Shown in pieces: positions 1 through 4,586 of a DNA stretch of 6,437 nt. The notes beneath the pieces are model-generated. The model did no database searches and had not been told where the DNA came from. It was given only the letters and a program-made list of their open reading frames with translations. This stretch comes from Elusimicrobia bacterium HGW-Elusimicrobia-2 (lineage in GTDB: Bacteria > CG03). A program made the position numbers and the translations under genes. Position 1 is the first letter of the stretch; each line of letters begins with the position of its first letter. Location: NCBI GenBank assembly GCA_002841685.1, contig PHAM01000081.1, positions 1 to 6,437 of the forward strand, in the 5' to 3' direction.

Positions 1-16
1 TTTCAATCCTTTTCAT
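1..16 (-). CDS. 5' end of an unidentified gene, cut by the window edge
   Basis: Only the first five codons are visible on the minus strand (M-K-R-I-E, ATG at 16-14), so no function can be given. The call rests on the start region. Reading toward the ATG, an AAAGGAGGG ribosome binding site (about 33-25) is followed by an 8-nt spacer and the start codon. A consensus promoter lies just upstream at 76-48. It follows the small gene at 81-221 on the same strand with a 64-nt gap, so both may be co-transcribed from the 292-266 promoter, with the inner promoter adding expression of this gene alone. The start codon overlaps one arm of a perfect inverted repeat (15-49). Confidence 0.6.
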
Positions 17-49
17 CGGAACAGCCCTCCTTTACATATCTGTTCCGAT
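15..49. promoter_or_regulatory. Perfect 10-bp inverted repeat around a ribosome binding site (operator or RNA hairpin)
   Basis: ATCGGAACAG at 15-24 and its exact reverse complement CTGTTCCGAT at 40-49 are separated by 15 nt. On the minus strand the loop carries the AAAGGAGGG ribosome binding site, and the last two stem bases are the A and U of the AUG of the partial gene at 1-16. The same repeat reaches the -10 element of the 76-48 promoter and spans its expected start. It could therefore be a repressor operator, or an mRNA hairpin in transcripts that begin further upstream. No T-run follows, so it is not a rho-independent terminator. Confidence 0.55.
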
Positions 50-76
50 TATAGCACTTCTCCTTTTTATGCGCAA
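48..76 (-). promoter_or_regulatory. Sigma70-type promoter for the partial minus-strand gene
   Basis: On the minus strand, TTGCGC (76-71) is followed by a 17-bp spacer and a consensus TATAAT (53-48). TG lies one base before it (TGCTATAAT), an extended -10. The predicted start is near position 41, inside the outer arm of the inverted repeat at 15-49. The transcript would then have a leader of about 25 nt and lack a complete hairpin. It lies just past the stop of the 81-221 gene. Confidence 0.6.
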
Positions 77-80
77 GTAT

Positions 81-221
81 TTATTGCGTTCCATATAAAA
101 ATAATCGCTGATAGCTGATCTCCATGGCGCTTTTGTCAGCGGGCGCGCTCTTTTTCTCCTTGCAGAAAACAGATACCGTCAGCAGTGACAGTGATAGAAA
201 TCCTATAACTAAACTTTTCAT
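81..221 (-). CDS. Small exported peptide, 46 aa, function unknown
   Basis: The product is 46 residues. It has a short positive N-terminus (MK), a hydrophobic stretch at about residues 4-19 rich in Leu, Val and Ser, and Cys20, then a charged tail beginning KEKKSAPADKS. This is a signal peptide or lipoprotein-precursor layout. The residues before Cys20 (S-V-F-C) are not a good lipobox, so lipidation is uncertain. The ATG at 221 is chosen because GGAGGG stands 4 nt upstream. A longer reading frame from 281 would begin upstream of most of its own promoter's expected transcript (292-266 promoter). The mature part would be only about 26 residues. It resembles the short lipoprotein-like peptides many Gram-negative bacteria carry. 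I do not recognise the family. Confidence 0.6.
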   Translation of the reverse strand: MKSLVIGFLSLSLLTVSVFCKEKKSAPADKSAMEISYQRLFLYGTQ

Positions 222-265
222 AAATCCCTCCATTTTTTCAATTCCCCTCCGCAGGGATAAAGGAA

Positions 266-292
266 AGTATAATAAAAGCACTGTTTAGTCAA
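266..292 (-). promoter_or_regulatory. Promoter for the small exported peptide gene
   Basis: On the minus strand, TTGACT (292-287) and TATACT (271-266) are 15 bp apart, or 16 bp if ATTGAC is taken as the -35. Both hexamers are close to consensus but the spacing is short. The expected start near 259 gives a leader of about 38 nt before the ATG at 221. It is arranged back-to-back with the plus-strand promoter at 322-350. Confidence 0.5.
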
Positions 293-321
293 TATCTCAT
301 CCGATTGCGCGAAGATTTCAA

Positions 322-350
322 TAGACAGCGCATGAATCTTGTGCTAAAAT
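322..350 (+). promoter_or_regulatory. Strong extended -10 promoter for the 394 gene
   Basis: TAGACA (322-327), a 17-bp spacer, and TAAAAT (345-350) preceded by TG one base earlier (TGCTAAAAT). Each hexamer matches consensus at five of six positions, and spacing is ideal. The expected start is near 357, giving a leader of about 37 nt before the ATG at 394. Confidence 0.65.
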
Positions 351-393
351 CAGCGAGGAAGATTTTGGCAATAGCAGATAAGGAGGTATTGTT

Positions 394-600
394 ATGGTTG
401 AATACAGCGAGTTTAAGGGTAATCAGATGATTGTTTTAAAAAAAGATGAGAACGACCACTTTCCTTTTCAATTCGGCATTAGCAAGGCAAAGAAAATCGT
501 GGAGAATTTTGACGCGATAAAAAGCTGGGTTGAAAAAATGGAAGCTTCAAAGCTGGCCAAGCCCGCGCCTGCCGCCGGAGAAAAGGAGCCTCTCGCATAG
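394..600 (+). CDS. Small conserved-looking protein, 68 aa, function unknown
   Basis: The start is well supported: AGGAGG at 381-386 stands 7 nt before the ATG, behind the promoter at 322-350. The first 50 residues look like a compact folded domain: MVEYSEFKGNQMIVLKK (probable beta strands), an acidic turn DENDHFPFQFG, then a helix SKAKKIVENFDAIKSWVEKM. The rest (about residues 53-68) is an Ala/Pro/Lys-rich flexible tail. From memory, short proteins with a KGN...IVLK...FPF.FG..KAK..ENF pattern recur as uncharacterised genes in candidate bacterial phyla, but I cannot confirm this. There is no signal peptide or membrane segment, so it is likely cytoplasmic. The frame continues open for 42 codons past the TAG stop (see 601-729). 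Confidence 0.75.
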   Translation: MVEYSEFKGNQMIVLKKDENDHFPFQFGISKAKKIVENFDAIKSWVEKMEASKLAKPAPAAGEKEPLA

Positions 601-729
601 CAGGAACGCAAAAAGACAGGCATTCCTGTCACGGCGAAAACGCTTGACGAGATGCGTCCGATGTGCGGGGAGTCGGGTCTGTCCGGCTGCGACTTTTGTA
701 AAATGGTGGCAGGTATTCAGTTATTCTAA
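601..729 (+). other. Open in-frame extension beyond the amber stop of the 394 gene
   Basis: After the TAG at 598-600 the same frame stays open for 42 codons to a TAA at 727-729. It begins QERKKTGIPVTAKTLDEM and then has a cysteine cluster, CGESGLSGCDFC. No good ribosome binding site precedes the only internal ATGs (652, 661, 703). It may be the remnant of a once longer protein, a readthrough extension, or non-coding DNA open by chance. Its last nine codons coincide with the left 26-bp direct repeat. A small GACAGG-CATT-CCTGTC hairpin at 615-630 has no T-run, so it is not a convincing terminator. Confidence 0.25.
701..726. repeat. Left copy of a 26-bp direct repeat bounding the accessory cassette
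   Basis: This stretch begins AAATGGTGGCAGG and ends TTCAGTTATTC. It matches 2998-3023 at 23 of 26 positions in the same orientation, differing at the 7th, 14th and 15th bases. The copies lie about 2.3 kb apart, one just before the wHTH-MNT promoter and one just after the stop of the AlbA gene. A chance match this good at both edges of a compositionally distinct block is unlikely. It may be a duplicated target, an att-like core, or two members of an intergenic repeat family. Confidence 0.65.
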
Positions 730-743
730 ACAAAGCGCGGTTA

Positions 744-772
744 TTGACAGATGCGGGGTTGTTAAATAGACT
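744..772 (+). promoter_or_regulatory. Promoter of the wHTH-MNT cassette
   Basis: A consensus TTGACA (744-749) is followed by a 17-bp spacer and TAGACT (767-772), four of six matches to TATAAT. The expected start is near 779, giving a leader of about 22 nt before the ATG at 801. One TGTTAA half-site (760-765) lies in the spacer, and a complete inverted repeat of the same hexamer lies just downstream (780-797). This suggests repression by the wHTH product. Confidence 0.6.
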
Positions 773-779
773 TTACATA

Positions 780-797
780 TGTTAAGTGAGGTTAACA
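780..797. promoter_or_regulatory. Candidate autoregulatory operator, TGTTAA-N6-TTAACA
   Basis: A perfect inverted repeat (780-785 and 792-797) is centred just after the predicted transcription start. A further TGTTAA at 760-765 sits exactly 20 bp upstream on the same face of the helix. The spacer GTGAGG is the probable ribosome binding site of the gene at 801, so a repressor here would also cover the translation start. AGGTTAACA (789-797) recurs inside the gene at 915-923. Winged-helix antitoxin-type proteins often repress their own operon. That the product binds here is inference. Confidence 0.45.
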
Positions 798-800
798 CTA

Positions 801-1439
801 ATGGCTATTGATAGAGCGCTCGACAGCGTGCTGAGCACAAACTCAAAGATAAGTATCGTGCGGCTTTTTGTGGCGAGGAGGCATGATTTTATAGCTTCCG
901 GACGGGGAATAGCAAGGTTAACAGGCATAACTCCTCCCGCCGCGCACACTTCCTTAAAAGCGCTTTACAATGAAGATATTCTTAAGCGGGATATCGTCGG
1001 GAAACAGCACATATACCGGCTTAACACGAAGAGCAGGGTTGTAAAAACCATTCTTGTTCCCGCATTCAGCAATGAACAATCGGTCATGAAAGATATAGGC
1101 GCTTTTATTAAGAAGAAGTTAAGAGACAAAAAAATAAGCGCGGATATTGTTTCCGTTGTTCTCTATGGAAGCGCGCAGACCGGACGCGGCATAAAAAAAG
1201 GGGACGTGGGTATTGCCGTAATTGTAAAAGATGCAAAGCGCGTAAAACGGATAAAAAGTGTGTTTGCCGAGGACATAGCGGAAGCATTTTATGAATATTT
1301 CAACGCGCATCTTGATGTTTATCTGAAAACAAAAAAGCGTTTTAAGGAAATGGTGAAGAATAACGCGCCGCCTGTTTCCACGCTTATGAAATCTTACTCG
1401 GTTATATACGGAAAAGATCCCCGTGATTTAGAGCGATGA
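801..1439 (+). CDS. Winged-helix / minimal nucleotidyltransferase (MNT) fusion with altered active site
   Basis: The 212-residue product has two parts. Residues about 12-78 form a winged helix-turn-helix (recognition helix near GITPPAAHTSLKALY). Residues about 95-185 form a polymerase-beta-like minimal nucleotidyltransferase domain. The signature is L-Y-G123-S124, ten residues, D135-V-G137, and a later Asp172 (HLDVYLK). Active family members have GS-X10-D-X-D plus the third carboxylate; here the second metal-binding Asp is Gly, so adenylyltransfer is probably weak or lost. In MNT-HEPN systems the MNT protein is the antitoxin and AMPylates the HEPN toxin. ATG 801 is preferred to GTG 786: GTGAGG lies 9 nt before it, and 786 has no ribosome binding site and sits only about 7 nt after the expected transcript start. 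The stop overlaps the next ATG by 4 bp, so translation is probably coupled. Confidence 0.85.
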   Translation: MAIDRALDSVLSTNSKISIVRLFVARRHDFIASGRGIARLTGITPPAAHTSLKALYNEDILKRDIVGKQHIYRLNTKSRVVKTILVPAFSNEQSVMKDIGAFIKKKLRDKKISADIVSVVLYGSAQTGRGIKKGDVGIAVIVKDAKRVKRIKSVFAEDIAEAFYEYFNAHLDVYLKTKKRFKEMVKNNAPPVSTLMKSYSVIYGKDPRDLER

Positions 1440-1642
1440 CGCCAAAGAAACAAAAAATAAAACAGGAAGATAAATCAAAAGTTTCGGCATTTTTAAAGAA
1501 AGCGGAAGATAACTTTAATCAGATGCGGACAGCCATTGAAGAAGAAAATTTTAATGCTGCCGGTACTCTGGCTGTTCAATGCGCGATATCTTCAGCGGAT
1601 GCGATATGCGTTTATGAAAATGAAAATTGCAGAGAATTTTAA
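1436..1642 (+). pseudogene. Truncated HEPN-domain protein (likely toxin partner remnant), 68 aa
   Basis: The ATG overlaps the MNT stop (ATGA), the usual arrangement of MNT-HEPN pairs. After a Lys-rich start, residues 15-60 resemble the first two helices of HEPN proteins: VSAFLKKAEDNFNQMRTAIE, then N38-F-N-A-A-G and AVQCAISSADAICVY. HEPN proteins usually run to about 110-150 residues. Their RNase motif, RX4-6H, lies in the later helices, which are absent here: the frame ends ENENCREF-stop, 3 bp before the AlbA gene. No remainder of the domain is found between 2996 and 3049. The sequence turns AT-rich near this junction, consistent with replacement of the 3' end by foreign DNA. It is probably catalytically dead. 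A functional short partner of the MNT protein cannot be excluded. Confidence 0.65.
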
Positions 1643-1645
1643 GAT

Positions 1646-2995
1646 ATGAATAAAAACGAATTAGCATTGCTGATGTCTCAAGGAGAGGGATATAATCTTG
1701 AATTTAAAGAAAATTATTCTAAAAACATCGGCAGAGAAATATGCGCTTTTGCTAATGCTTCCGGCGGTACGATAATAATAGGTATCAGCGATAATGGACA
1801 ACAAACAGGTTTTAAAATTTCAAACAGAATCAAATCTGAAATTCAGGATATGGCGAGAAAATCAGAACCTTCTATCAAAATTGATATTGAGAAAGCCGAT
1901 ACGGATTTGGTCGTGATTAGCGTGTTTGAAGGAGAGAATAAACCTTATTCTTACGGCGGAAAGTTTTTCATAAGAGAAGGCGCGAACACACAACAGCTTG
2001 CAAGGGAAGAAATTAGAACTTTTTTTCAAAAGGAAGGAAGAATTCTATTTGATGAAATGCCCAATAGGGATTTTGACATAAAAAAAGATTTTGATAATTC
2101 CAAGTACAGCAAATTTTTAGCAAAAGCAGGCATTTCCGGCATTGCCGATAAAAAAATTGTATTGGAAAATTTGGGGCTTCTTAAAGATGAATGTATGAAA
2201 AATGCGGGAATCTTGCTATTTGCAAAAAATATTGCGAATTTTTTTATTAATGCTTCAATAACCTGTTGCATATTTAAAGGCAAATCAAAAACAGAAATTT
2301 TAGACAGAAAAGAATTTGCTTCTGATATATACTCAAACTATGAGAGCGCAATTTTATATTTACAGAAAAATCTTAAAACAAGATATGTTATAAAAGATGC
2401 CGGTCCGAGAAAGGAAGTTCTTGAAATGCCGGAAGAGGTTTTAAGAGAGGCGATATTAAATGCGATTCTCCACAGAGATTATTTTGAAAAAGGCGCTTGT
2501 GTGATGGTGGAAATTTATTCGGATAGAATTGAAATTAGCAATCCCGGCGGCTTGGCGGGCGGTCTAAAACCTGAAGATTTTGGTAAAAAGAGTTTATCAA
2601 GAAATCCGCTATTGTTTGGATTGGTTCATCGGCTTGGTTTAGTAGAAAAAGTTGGTTCGGGCATAGAAAGAATGCGGTTAGCAATGGGGAATGCCGGCCT
2701 TAAAGAACCGGTTTTTGAATTTGGAACATTTTTTACAGTAAAATTAAAAAGATCTGGTCAGGCGGACACCCAGAAAACACCCAGAAAACACCCAGAAAAC
2801 ACCCAGAAAATAGTAGGCGCTATTTTAGAGAACCCCGCAATAACAATAAAAGAATTAGCCCGGCAATTAGGGTTATCTCAGGATAGTATAAAACATCACG
2901 TCTTAGTTTTAAAAAAGAAAGGCGTTATAAAAAGAGTTGGCCCCGATAAAGGCGGACATTGGGAAGTTATTAAGGCTATTGGAGACGGTTCCTAA
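1646..2995 (+). CDS. Schlafen AlbA_2 / GHKL-ATPase-like / winged-helix transcriptional regulator
   Basis: The 449-residue protein has the usual length and order for this family. Residues about 11-128 are a Schlafen AlbA_2 domain (N17-LEFKE, then ICAFANASGGTIIIGISDNG at 32-51). Residues about 255-368 are an HATPase_c_4-like domain (N-box LREAILNAILHRDY, DRIEISNPGG at 293-302, and the glycine loop GLVEKVGSGIERM at 331-343). A linker encoded by four 11-bp repeats follows (about 375-388), then a winged helix (about 389-445: TIKELARQLGLSQDSIKHHVLVLKKKG). Such proteins are annotated as ATP-binding or RNA-binding-domain regulators; most are biochemically uncharacterised. It is strongly AT-rich compared with the flanking genes, suggesting transfer. 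ATG 1646 is 3 bp after the truncated HEPN stop and has only a weak AGAG 11 nt upstream, so it probably relies on translation from the preceding frame. Confidence 0.88.
   Translation: MNKNELALLMSQGEGYNLEFKENYSKNIGREICAFANASGGTIIIGISDNGQQTGFKISNRIKSEIQDMARKSEPSIKIDIEKADTDLVVISVFEGENKPYSYGGKFFIREGANTQQLAREEIRTFFQKEGRILFDEMPNRDFDIKKDFDNSKYSKFLAKAGISGIADKKIVLENLGLLKDECMKNAGILLFAKNIANFFINASITCCIFKGKSKTEILDRKEFASDIYSNYESAILYLQKNLKTRYVIKDAGPRKEVLEMPEEVLREAILNAILHRDYFEKGACVMVEIYSDRIEISNPGGLAGGLKPEDFGKKSLSRNPLLFGLVHRLGLVEKVGSGIERMRLAMGNAGLKEPVFEFGTFFTVKLKRSGQADTQKTPRKHPENTQKIVGAILENPAITIKELARQLGLSQDSIKHHVLVLKKKGVIKRVGPDKGGHWEVIKAIGDGS
2767..2810 (+). repeat. Four exact 11-bp tandem repeats inside the AlbA gene
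   Basis: The unit CACCCAGAAAA is repeated four times without a mismatch (2767, 2778, 2789, 2800). Because 11 is not a multiple of three, the repeats are read in successive frames, giving the linker TQKTPRKHPENTQK; all three frames are open within the array. Gain of one unit puts TAG (2811-2813) in frame immediately after the array. Loss of one unit gives 24 foreign codons and a TAG at 2884-2886. Either change removes the C-terminal winged helix. It is a candidate phase-variable tract. Confidence 0.9.
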
Positions 2996-2997
2996 AG

Positions 2998-3023
2998 AAA
3001 TGGCGGCAGGCTTTCAGTTATTC
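2998..3023. repeat. Right copy of the 26-bp direct repeat
   Basis: It starts AAATGGCGGCAGG and ends TTCAGTTATTC, matching 701-726 at 23 of 26 bases, and begins 3 bp after the AlbA stop. Its end forms a small tandem duplication, TTCAGTTA twice (3013-3028), of which the left copy has one unit plus TTC. It lies just before the ribosome binding site of the 3050 gene, so this may be the original junction with the host sequence. Confidence 0.65.
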
Positions 3024-3049
3024 AGTTATATGGGAGGAAGGGCGGGATC

Positions 3050-3847
3050 ATGAATGACGGTGCGCAGCGCTACGCTGTGATTTTGAAAAACGCGGAGGAT
3101 TTAGAGCCGCAGCGCCTGGCGCCGCCCTTGAGCAGGGCGTTGAAGATAGCTCTTTACGACGCCGCCCGGCAATCAAGGATGCACAGAGGGATTCCGGCGA
3201 AAAATCTGGACGAGGGAGCCGCTAAGAGCATAGCATCGGAATTTGAGGCGTCGGGTATTGACTGCGCGGTCGTGAGAGAGGAATCCATCGCCTCTATGCC
3301 GGAAGCGCGGAAGGTGCCGAAACTTGAGATGATGGAAGATGGCCTGATTGTTTTTCCCCTCGATGGCAGAGAAGAACTGAAATGGGACGAAATAGCGCTG
3401 ATCGCCGCCGCCACCACCGAGAACAGAGAAACAAAAACCACCGTCAGTCAGATCTCTCCTGGCATGGGCAAAAAAATAGCCGGGTTTGGAATACTGATGA
3501 CGACGGGAATTCCTTTAAAGATGGGAAAAACAAGAAAAGTTGAAAAAACAGAAACGACAACAAAATTAGAATATTTCGCCGAGTTGTTCGCCGGCAATCC
3601 GCCGCGGAGATTTAGAATTGATGCGGAAAGTTTTGATTTCACCTGCCTGAAAGAGAAAATATTCCCTAATATTTACAGCAATTTCACTCTTCTGGTAACA
3701 GAACTGGTGAAAATGGCCCCGCGCGCGTTATTAAACAGGGGCGTGCGCAATTTTCTGAAACCCGGCGAGGGCGAAAGGTTTTCTTATACTGATAACGAAG
3801 ACTTCAATGCGGAAAATCGCTGGCTTTTGACACTTCGGAACATTTGA
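3050..3847 (+). CDS. Unrecognised 265-aa cytoplasmic protein
   Basis: I do not recognise the family. The product has no signal peptide or convincing membrane segment. Residues about 6-90 look like an alpha/beta domain: strand RYAVILKNAE, a helix LSRALKIALYDAARQ, an amphipathic helix DEGAAKSIASEFEASG, and strand IDCAVVREE. Residues about 95-125 (EDGLIVFPLDGREELKWDEI) are beta-rich and lead to a helix, IALIAAATT. A basic/threonine-rich linker (about 158-172, KMGKTRKVEKTETTTK) precedes a C-terminal part with two helices (IYSNFTLLVTELVKMAPRAL) and an unstructured tail. The start is supported by GGAGGAAGG at 3033-3041, 8 nt before the ATG. No clear promoter precedes it, so it may once have been transcribed with the 394 gene. 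The following promoter at 3884 separates it from bioY. Confidence 0.7.
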   Translation: MNDGAQRYAVILKNAEDLEPQRLAPPLSRALKIALYDAARQSRMHRGIPAKNLDEGAAKSIASEFEASGIDCAVVREESIASMPEARKVPKLEMMEDGLIVFPLDGREELKWDEIALIAAATTENRETKTTVSQISPGMGKKIAGFGILMTTGIPLKMGKTRKVEKTETTTKLEYFAELFAGNPPRRFRIDAESFDFTCLKEKIFPNIYSNFTLLVTELVKMAPRALLNRGVRNFLKPGEGERFSYTDNEDFNAENRWLLTLRNI

Positions 3848-3883
3848 CGCGCTGATTGGGAAGGTTACTGAAATAGCGTACAA

Positions 3884-3912
3884 TTGACCTTTGGGCGCTT
3901 ATATAATAAAAT
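3884..3912 (+). promoter_or_regulatory. Strong promoter of the bioY operon
   Basis: TTGACC (3884-3889), a 17-bp spacer, then TAAAAT (3907-3912). An overlapping perfect TATAAT (3902-3907) is only 12 bp from the -35. The expected start is near 3919, leaving a leader of about 35 nt. I looked for a BirA operator (TTGTWAACC and its mirror) or a BioR site (TTATMKATAA) and found neither. An AAGGT/ACCTT pair (3861-3865, 3887-3891) is too short to call an operator. Confidence 0.6.
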
Positions 3913-3953
3913 TTATGCAGGATTTTGGAAGAGGCAGACAGGAGTGATGAGAT

Positions 3954-4586
3954 ATGAATACAGCTGTTTTTTACGGGCGTTTTGAGGATGCCAGGTATAA
4001 TTTTTATGTTTGGAGCAGGGGGAGCGTTTTCGCGAAACGCATTGCTCTCGCGGGAGGGATGGCTGTTGTCACCGGGCTTCTGGCCCTGATAAGGATACAG
4101 CTCCCCTTTACCCCCGTTCCCGTGACGGGGCAGACGATGGGCGTTCTTTTGAGCGGCGTCGTCTGCGGGCCGATGTTCGGCGCTTTCAGCCAGCTTATGT
4201 ACGTGGGCGCGGGTATAGCGGGTGTGCCGTGGTTCGCCGGAGGGGCGCAGGGCTCCCTCGCGACGCTGGCGGGCCCCACGGGAGGTTATCTGATGGGTTT
4301 TATCCTCGCTCCCGTTGTTTCGGGGTATCTCACGGACATATCTTTCGACGGAAGAAAGCGTCTGCCGCAGTTTGTAATAATGACGGCCTCCACCGCAGTT
4401 ATATTAATTTGCGGAGCGTGTTATCTTGCTTTTCTTATGAAATACGGTTTTACCGAAACTTTGATAAAAGGCGTCCTTCCTTTTATCCCCGGGGATATGG
4501 TGAAAATCATCGGCGCCGCCGCGGCAGGTTCGTTAATTCTTCCGAAAAAATCTTCTATGCGGAAATGTAAAGGATTAAAAATTTGA
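3954..4586 (+). CDS. bioY: BioY biotin transporter, substrate-binding subunit
   Basis: BioY is the integral-membrane S-component of energy-coupling-factor transporters that import biotin. The 210-residue length fits. Family hallmarks are clear: residues 51-61 PFTPVPVTGQT; GAFSQLMYVGAGIAGVPWFAGG at 76-97 (split G/P-rich loop); GPTGGYLMGF at 107-116; and near the end PFIPGD (176-181) followed by Lys184, the conserved D-x2-K. About five or six hydrophobic segments are visible between residues 29 and 196. No EcfA/EcfT genes lie nearby, so it would share those encoded elsewhere or act alone. AGGAG at 3940-3944 stands 9 nt before the ATG. It leads an operon of four overlapping genes; its stop overlaps the next start (TTGA). 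Confidence 0.95.
   Translation: MNTAVFYGRFEDARYNFYVWSRGSVFAKRIALAGGMAVVTGLLALIRIQLPFTPVPVTGQTMGVLLSGVVCGPMFGAFSQLMYVGAGIAGVPWFAGGAQGSLATLAGPTGGYLMGFILAPVVSGYLTDISFDGRKRLPQFVIMTASTAVILICGACYLAFLMKYGFTETLIKGVLPFIPGDMVKIIGAAAAGSLILPKKSSMRKCKGLKI

Follow-up and report, generated by a model that had tools for sequence, protein, structure and literature searches.

Can an antitoxin without enzyme activity keep a use by repressing a recently acquired RNase? This question is raised by a 6,437-nt stretch of DNA (here called the window) that makes up the entire contig C35 (PHAM01000081.1) of Elusimicrobia bacterium HGW-Elusimicrobia-2, whose fragmented metagenome-assembled genome (MAG) spans 1.78 Mb in 94 contigs. 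The window has a locus that resembles a PDC-M05 operon, a nucleotidyltransferase (MNT) gene followed by a HEPN toxin gene, in which the toxin gene gives way halfway to a Schlafen-family gene; it has the look of a single, real rearrangement of known parts. We consider the best explanation of the whole to be a PDC-M05 operon whose RNase effector has been replaced by another RNase, with the old promoter and operator and a nucleotidyltransferase-dead repressor upstream, and we give this a probability of about 50%. The three genes are codirectional, as the first-pass annotation had recognized, and are arranged as follows:

801 to 1439, + strand: gene 1, a winged helix-turn-helix (wHTH)-MNT nucleotidyltransferase of the PDC-M05A family, with GSx10DxG where relatives have GSx10DxD
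1436 to 1642, + strand: gene 2, the 5' remnant of a HEPN toxin gene (HEPN'), HEPN-derived to about 1618 and followed by seven codons from the Schlafen leader
1618, no strand: junction between the HEPN sequence and the Schlafen-gene unit, located with a DNA query of 1560 to 1760
1646 to 2995, + strand: gene 3, a Schlafen-family protein with SLFN_AlbA_2 (residues 14 to 118), HATPase_c_4 (283 to 366), and wHTH (384 to 429) domains, and conserved E14, E19, and D49

Genes 1 and 2 share descent with intact pairs in Elusimicrobia and Omnitrophota MAGs, with 48 to 53% identity for MNT (homologues in G010, which has three copies, in G008, and in two Omnitrophota MAGs) and 54 to 66% for the N-terminal part of HEPN. 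As in HEPN-MNT (HepT/MntA) type VII toxin-antitoxin systems and in PDC-M05, a wHTH-MNT gene is followed directly by HEPN, the HEPN fold being recognizable in an intact relative, and PADLOC scores gene 1 as a candidate PDC-M05A, with intact relatives scoring strongly at 1e-18. PDC-M05 pairs a nucleotidyltransferase with a HEPN protein, is commoner in Archaea, and has an unconfirmed antiviral role (PMC12988326). The gene 1 start, an ATG at 801, coincides with the point at which homologues begin. The MNT-HEPN pair had been described at first pass as disarmed, and this is so for both partners. Unlike the GSx10DxD of the known systems, the active-site motif of gene 1 is GSx10DVG; among 43 relatives assembled from a 386-genome search and a GTDB scan, DxD is present in all 42 with a readable motif, and DxG occurs only here. 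The GSx10DXD motif of Shewanella MntA holds two Mg ions through D39 and D41, and substituting both residues together abolished AMPylation and weakened neutralization (PMC7641770). A wHTH-MNT protein without the second catalytic aspartate should not AMPylate, and would at most be a DNA-binding autorepressor. The AlphaFold model of MNT is weak (mean predicted local distance difference test [pLDDT] score of 67) and was used solely for its top match, which is MntA.

Gene 2 likewise differs from type VII and PDC-M05 systems, in which the adjacent HEPN has an intact RxH; its open reading frame (ORF) consists of about 61 HEPN codons plus seven foreign ones, and where the HEPN 3' half would be there is an additional gene, that of the Schlafen protein. 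Residues 1 to 61 resemble intact HEPN proteins of 134 to 135 aa encoded directly after MNT in relatives, and the similarity ends at about codon 61 of about 135, before the R-x5-H active site and with three of the fold's five helices missing. By sequence alone, Pfam HEPN is barely reached; all eight members of the alignment match PF05168 (best, 3.9e-8), and for an intact relative AlphaFold gives a model (pLDDT, 92) that matches HEPN structures with template-modeling scores of 0.6 to 0.77 and a Foldseek probability of 1.0. The first-pass annotation proposed that the HEPN 3' half had been replaced by an AlbA gene, and the DNA query places the joint precisely: the HEPN gene of G010 matches 1571 to 1618, and the Schlafen loci of G001 and G004 match 1618 to 1758. 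Because similarity to the Schlafen loci begins at 1618, the Schlafen unit arrived with its own leader of about 28 nt, including the ribosome-binding region. An intact-HEPN query of the genome matches residues 1 to 62 here only, and neither the HEPN 3' half nor another intact HEPN of this family was found. HEPN' is as similar to its relatives as the intact copies are to one another, which would favor reading MNT and the N-terminal HEPN helices as still one working unit, such as an RNA-binding or dominant-negative antitoxin, with the Schlafen gene as a passenger. We think this improbable, given that the lost helices and active site, as well as the lack in the genome search of any intact HEPN of this family to neutralize, argue against it.

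The third gene had been called an AlbA regulator. The AlbA_2 domain is present, but the architecture is that of a Schlafen-family RNase and not merely of a regulator, as indicated by its domains (PF04326, 1e-21; PF13749, 3.5e-22; PF13412, 6e-10) and by E14, E19, and D49. These residues are invariant in eight homologues and align (HMMER alignment) with E206, E211, and D249 of SLFN14; their equivalents in SLFN13 form the active site and are needed for RNA cleavage (PMC5862951). The gene is intact, shares 83% identity with its homologue in G001 and 80% with that in G004, and has pairwise ratios of nonsynonymous to synonymous substitution (dN/dS, or omega) of 0.13 to 0.15, subtraction along the three-way tree giving about 0.14 for the branch of the window; these low values indicate that it is maintained by purifying selection. 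Schlafen-family RNases with SLFN, histidine-kinase ATPase, and wHTH domains are widely reported around BREX loci (PMC12839542). Gene 3 has the same three domains in the same order and keeps the E/E/D triad, with RNase activity predicted, but it lies in an MNT-HEPN operon and not in a BREX locus, and has an 11-bp repeat linker. It is also about 24 to 33% identical, over most of its length, to COG2865-type genes for ATP-binding or RNA-binding domain-containing proteins on plasmids and phages; the pairing with MNT is not seen there, and a plasmid search with MNT gave no match to that family. On sequence grounds, we would name gene 3 a candidate Schlafen RNase effector in preference to a regulator.

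Two repeats lie within gene 3:

2766 to 2809, + strand: four perfect 11-bp tandem units ACACCCAGAAA, between the ATPase domain and the wHTH
2981 to 2992, + strand: a copy of the dispersed repeat GGRGACGGTTCC, encoding the last residues (GDGS-stop), with 21 copies in the genome and none in a reversed-pattern control

With one 11-bp unit more or fewer, the frame shifts and the wHTH is lost, giving a product of 392 or 409 aa in place of 449 aa; there are four units in G001 and seven in G004 (4 + 3, still in frame). The tract looks like a contingency (phase-variable) tract. The same tandem unit occurs in viral contig L191, with no Schlafen homologue there apart from the repeat, and a search of viral contigs with the Schlafen alignment gave no relative. 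The Schlafen unit ends at about 2969 to 2976, where it runs into GGAGACGGTTCC, one copy of the dispersed repeat; GGRGACGGTTCC also forms the last codons of a dehydrogenase gene in G001.

How did this cluster come to its present position? The first-pass annotation described it as bounded by direct repeats, and these are present, each precisely at one end of the gene cluster:

701 to 726, + strand: left direct repeat AAATGGTGGCAGGTATTCAGTTATTC, present as a single copy at the empty site of G003
2998 to 3023, + strand: right direct repeat AAATGGCGGCAGGCTTTCAGTTATTC, identical to the left repeat at 23 of 26 positions (three differ)

Taken alone, the pair is only modestly significant, since one of 60 Markov simulations, each covering the whole window, gave a best 26-mer pair with 23 matches. 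The insert looks mobile, and comparison with a relative lacking the cassette reveals the empty site: in G003, which belongs to the same genus, the site is uninterrupted and has a single repeat copy, TAATGGTGCCGGGCTTTCAGTTATATGGGG. It reads TGCGACTTTTAATGGTGCCGGGCTTTCAGTTATATGGGG, with its left flank like that of the window's left repeat and its right flank like that of the right repeat, and this agreement with the outer sides of both repeats fits insertion between two copies of one site. By blastn, window positions 96 to 724 correspond to G003 C114:7255-7879 and 3868 to 4550 to C114:7904-8586, with about 24 nt between them, and 725 to 3867 are wholly absent. The flanking genes, up68 on the left and bioY on the right, are neighbors in G003; other genes adjoin bioY in G001 and G002, so this spot is variable. 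The flanking duplication and the empty site in a relative are features of an autonomous element, but an integrase or transposase is not among them, as none was found between the repeats in the ORF list or by domain search. We ruled out that the 26-bp repeat is a high-copy element, as there are just two more diverged matches in the genome, and also that the left repeat is the natural 3' flank of dehydrogenase genes, as it is absent after the intact ones.

This collinearity also bears on whether the HEPN/Schlafen joint at 1618 comes from a chimeric contig, a misjoin in a single assembly being an outcome that the first-pass annotation itself had foreseen. The arrangement is indeed confined to one assembly, a MAG in many pieces, and the left end of the window is a repeat common to other contig ends. 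Nonetheless, a single misjoin would join unrelated loci, and it cannot explain this one because up68 and bioY are neighbors in G003; a simple misjoin at 1618 is thus ruled out, and two coordinated misjoins would be needed. With direct repeats at both ends fitting a real insertion, and the HEPN 3' half not found elsewhere in the genome, we regard an artefact as very improbable.

The organization of the cluster suggests how gene 3 might be controlled. MNT and HEPN' overlap by ATGA and 3 nt separate the HEPN' stop from the Schlafen ATG, so the gene spacing has been retained. Upstream of gene 1 are two candidate control elements:

744 to 772, + strand: predicted sigma-70-type promoter, TTGACA-17-TAGACT; the same TTGACA and operator layout precedes MNT in relatives
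780 to 797, + strand: inverted repeat TGTTAA-GTGAGG-TTAACA (TGTTAA-N6-TTAACA), a putative wHTH operator; relatives have GTTAACATATGTTAAGT at the same place

The single shared promoter noticed at first pass holds up as a candidate: there is no other + strand candidate before 1749, nor one just before the Schlafen gene. On its 3' side is TTTACATATGTTAAGTGAGGTTAACA, containing the perfect inverted repeat. A sharp AT-rich shift had been noted too; it is real, but it is not at the left end of the cassette, where the GC contents of the left flank and MNT are alike (0.434 and 0.437), and falls instead in HEPN' (0.377) and the AlbA/Schlafen gene (0.357). The shift therefore follows the Schlafen gene, and we ruled it out as a mark of the whole cassette.

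From the promoter and operator features, we propose, as the first-pass annotation had suggested, that wHTH-MNT controls the promoter and, through it, the Schlafen gene. A PDC-M05-type wHTH-MNT/HEPN operon was inserted beside bioY at an approximately 26-bp repeated sequence, and its HEPN toxin gene later had its 3' half replaced at 1618 by a Schlafen-type RNase gene with its own approximately 28-nt leader, leaving three closely packed genes that would be transcribed as one unit from the old promoter with its palindromic operator. With the HEPN fragment lacking an active site, the intact and selected Schlafen protein would be the only effector left; wHTH-MNT would repress the promoter and thereby limit the Schlafen RNase, which on derepression, perhaps during infection, would cleave RNA, and the locus may thus act in defense. 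We hold the anatomy and origin of the locus to be largely secure. That the old repressor is functionally coupled to the new RNase is plausible, with roughly even odds against plain decay. The most specific version, an effector exchange from HEPN RNase to Schlafen RNase in which an antitoxin that formerly AMPylated now does no more than repress transcription of the new RNase gene, is tentative and on balance rather doubtful.

The relatives show how such operons otherwise fare. When the genes downstream of the wHTH-MNT homologues were listed, as the first-pass annotation had advised, HEPN was next door in 31 of 43 relatives (25 intact and 6 split or partial) and was not recognized in the other 12, whereas a Schlafen gene followed MNT in none of the 43 (same strand, within about 3 kb, some loci being shorter). 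The junction DNA query found the same composite in none of 16 genomes of the phylum, and no relative has an intact HEPN here with the AlbA gene elsewhere. The second pair of the same genome (G000:C62; L018 1200-2115) has an intact MNT DxD, and a deletion that extends into the following gene leaves its HEPN with about 31 codons. In G003:C137 (L009 1084-1498) and G008 (L051 647-1052), HEPN is frameshifted around R-x5-H and the MNT partner is intact; in G005, a C-terminal MNT fragment stands alone. Loss of HEPN with retention of MNT thus recurs as a trend among these relatives, the exceptional step being the takeover by a Schlafen gene. A genome scan with a narrower MNT alignment gave six loci, and in an Omnitrophota MAG (L117 2992-3888) the same wHTH domain is fused not to MNT but to a zeta-toxin-like kinase.

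Schlafen homologues, in turn, adjoin unrelated upstream genes: a TaqI-like methylase in G001, an AbiEii-type nucleotidyltransferase and small partner in G002:C34, and ORF6N proteins in G003:C61. The Schlafen gene repeatedly joins other accessory operons. In G002:C34 (L095 3085-4440 and upstream), the homologue lies after the AbiEii-type nucleotidyltransferase and a partner of 72 aa, with an overlap of 4 nt. This is a second example in which a nucleotidyltransferase pair precedes a Schlafen gene.

These patterns give weight to a simpler account, in which the locus is a decaying toxin-antitoxin remnant, with the Schlafen gene expressed independently and left unaffected by the MNT protein. The frequent HEPN decay, the lone MNT fragment in G005, the Schlafen homologues behind unrelated genes, and the lost MNT catalytic site are all in its favor. 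Against it, the MNT frame is full length and departs at 7 of 60 relative-invariant positions, including the catalytic Asp, a number matched among relatives whose sites are intact (range, 1 to 10 per about 60); the promoter and operator are retained; and the Schlafen gene has no separate promoter candidate upstream. We consider decay a serious contender, although somewhat short of an even chance. MNT and HEPN' are not evolving faster than intact relatives, and no general pseudogene acceleration was found. Several points nonetheless weigh against the replacement of one RNase by another under the old repressor. First, the composite arrangement is present in one genome only. Second, relatives have often lost HEPN with no Schlafen gene involved, and some of what is seen here is therefore ordinary decay. 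Third, the Schlafen gene need not depend on the MNT promoter, given its homologues behind unrelated genes. Fourth, the DxG change is a single nucleotide, the Gly codon GGT being one nucleotide off an Asp codon; either a recent variant or an error in sequencing might account for it. Finally, the lack of a rate increase in MNT and HEPN' fits constraint, but equally fits a very recent break.

Two further genes flank the cluster:

394 to 600, + strand: up68, the left neighbor, a conserved 68-aa gene, 91% identical in G003:C114 and 89% in G002:C38
3050 to 3847, + strand: a 265-aa gene without known family or Pfam match, missing from G003 too

The 265-aa gene, absent from G003 as well, is a second difference at this site; its sole homologue among 20 relatives is in G008 (38% identical), and 43 bp from its 3' end are found again in G001:C270. 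Behind up68, window positions 574 to 697 duplicate the 3' part of an Ldh-family dehydrogenase gene; this fragment matches C36 and relatives and is also present in G003. Window positions 1 to 98 are a repeat that is 100% identical at the C4 and C53 contig ends, and contig C35 breaks at it.

The locus appears to be a toxin-antitoxin or defense operon caught while one effector is giving way to another, and its breakpoint can be read at single-base resolution. If the effector exchange is true, control of the toxin would have changed from post-translational to transcriptional. The loss of HEPN toxins while their MNT partners persist also bears on how such modules age.

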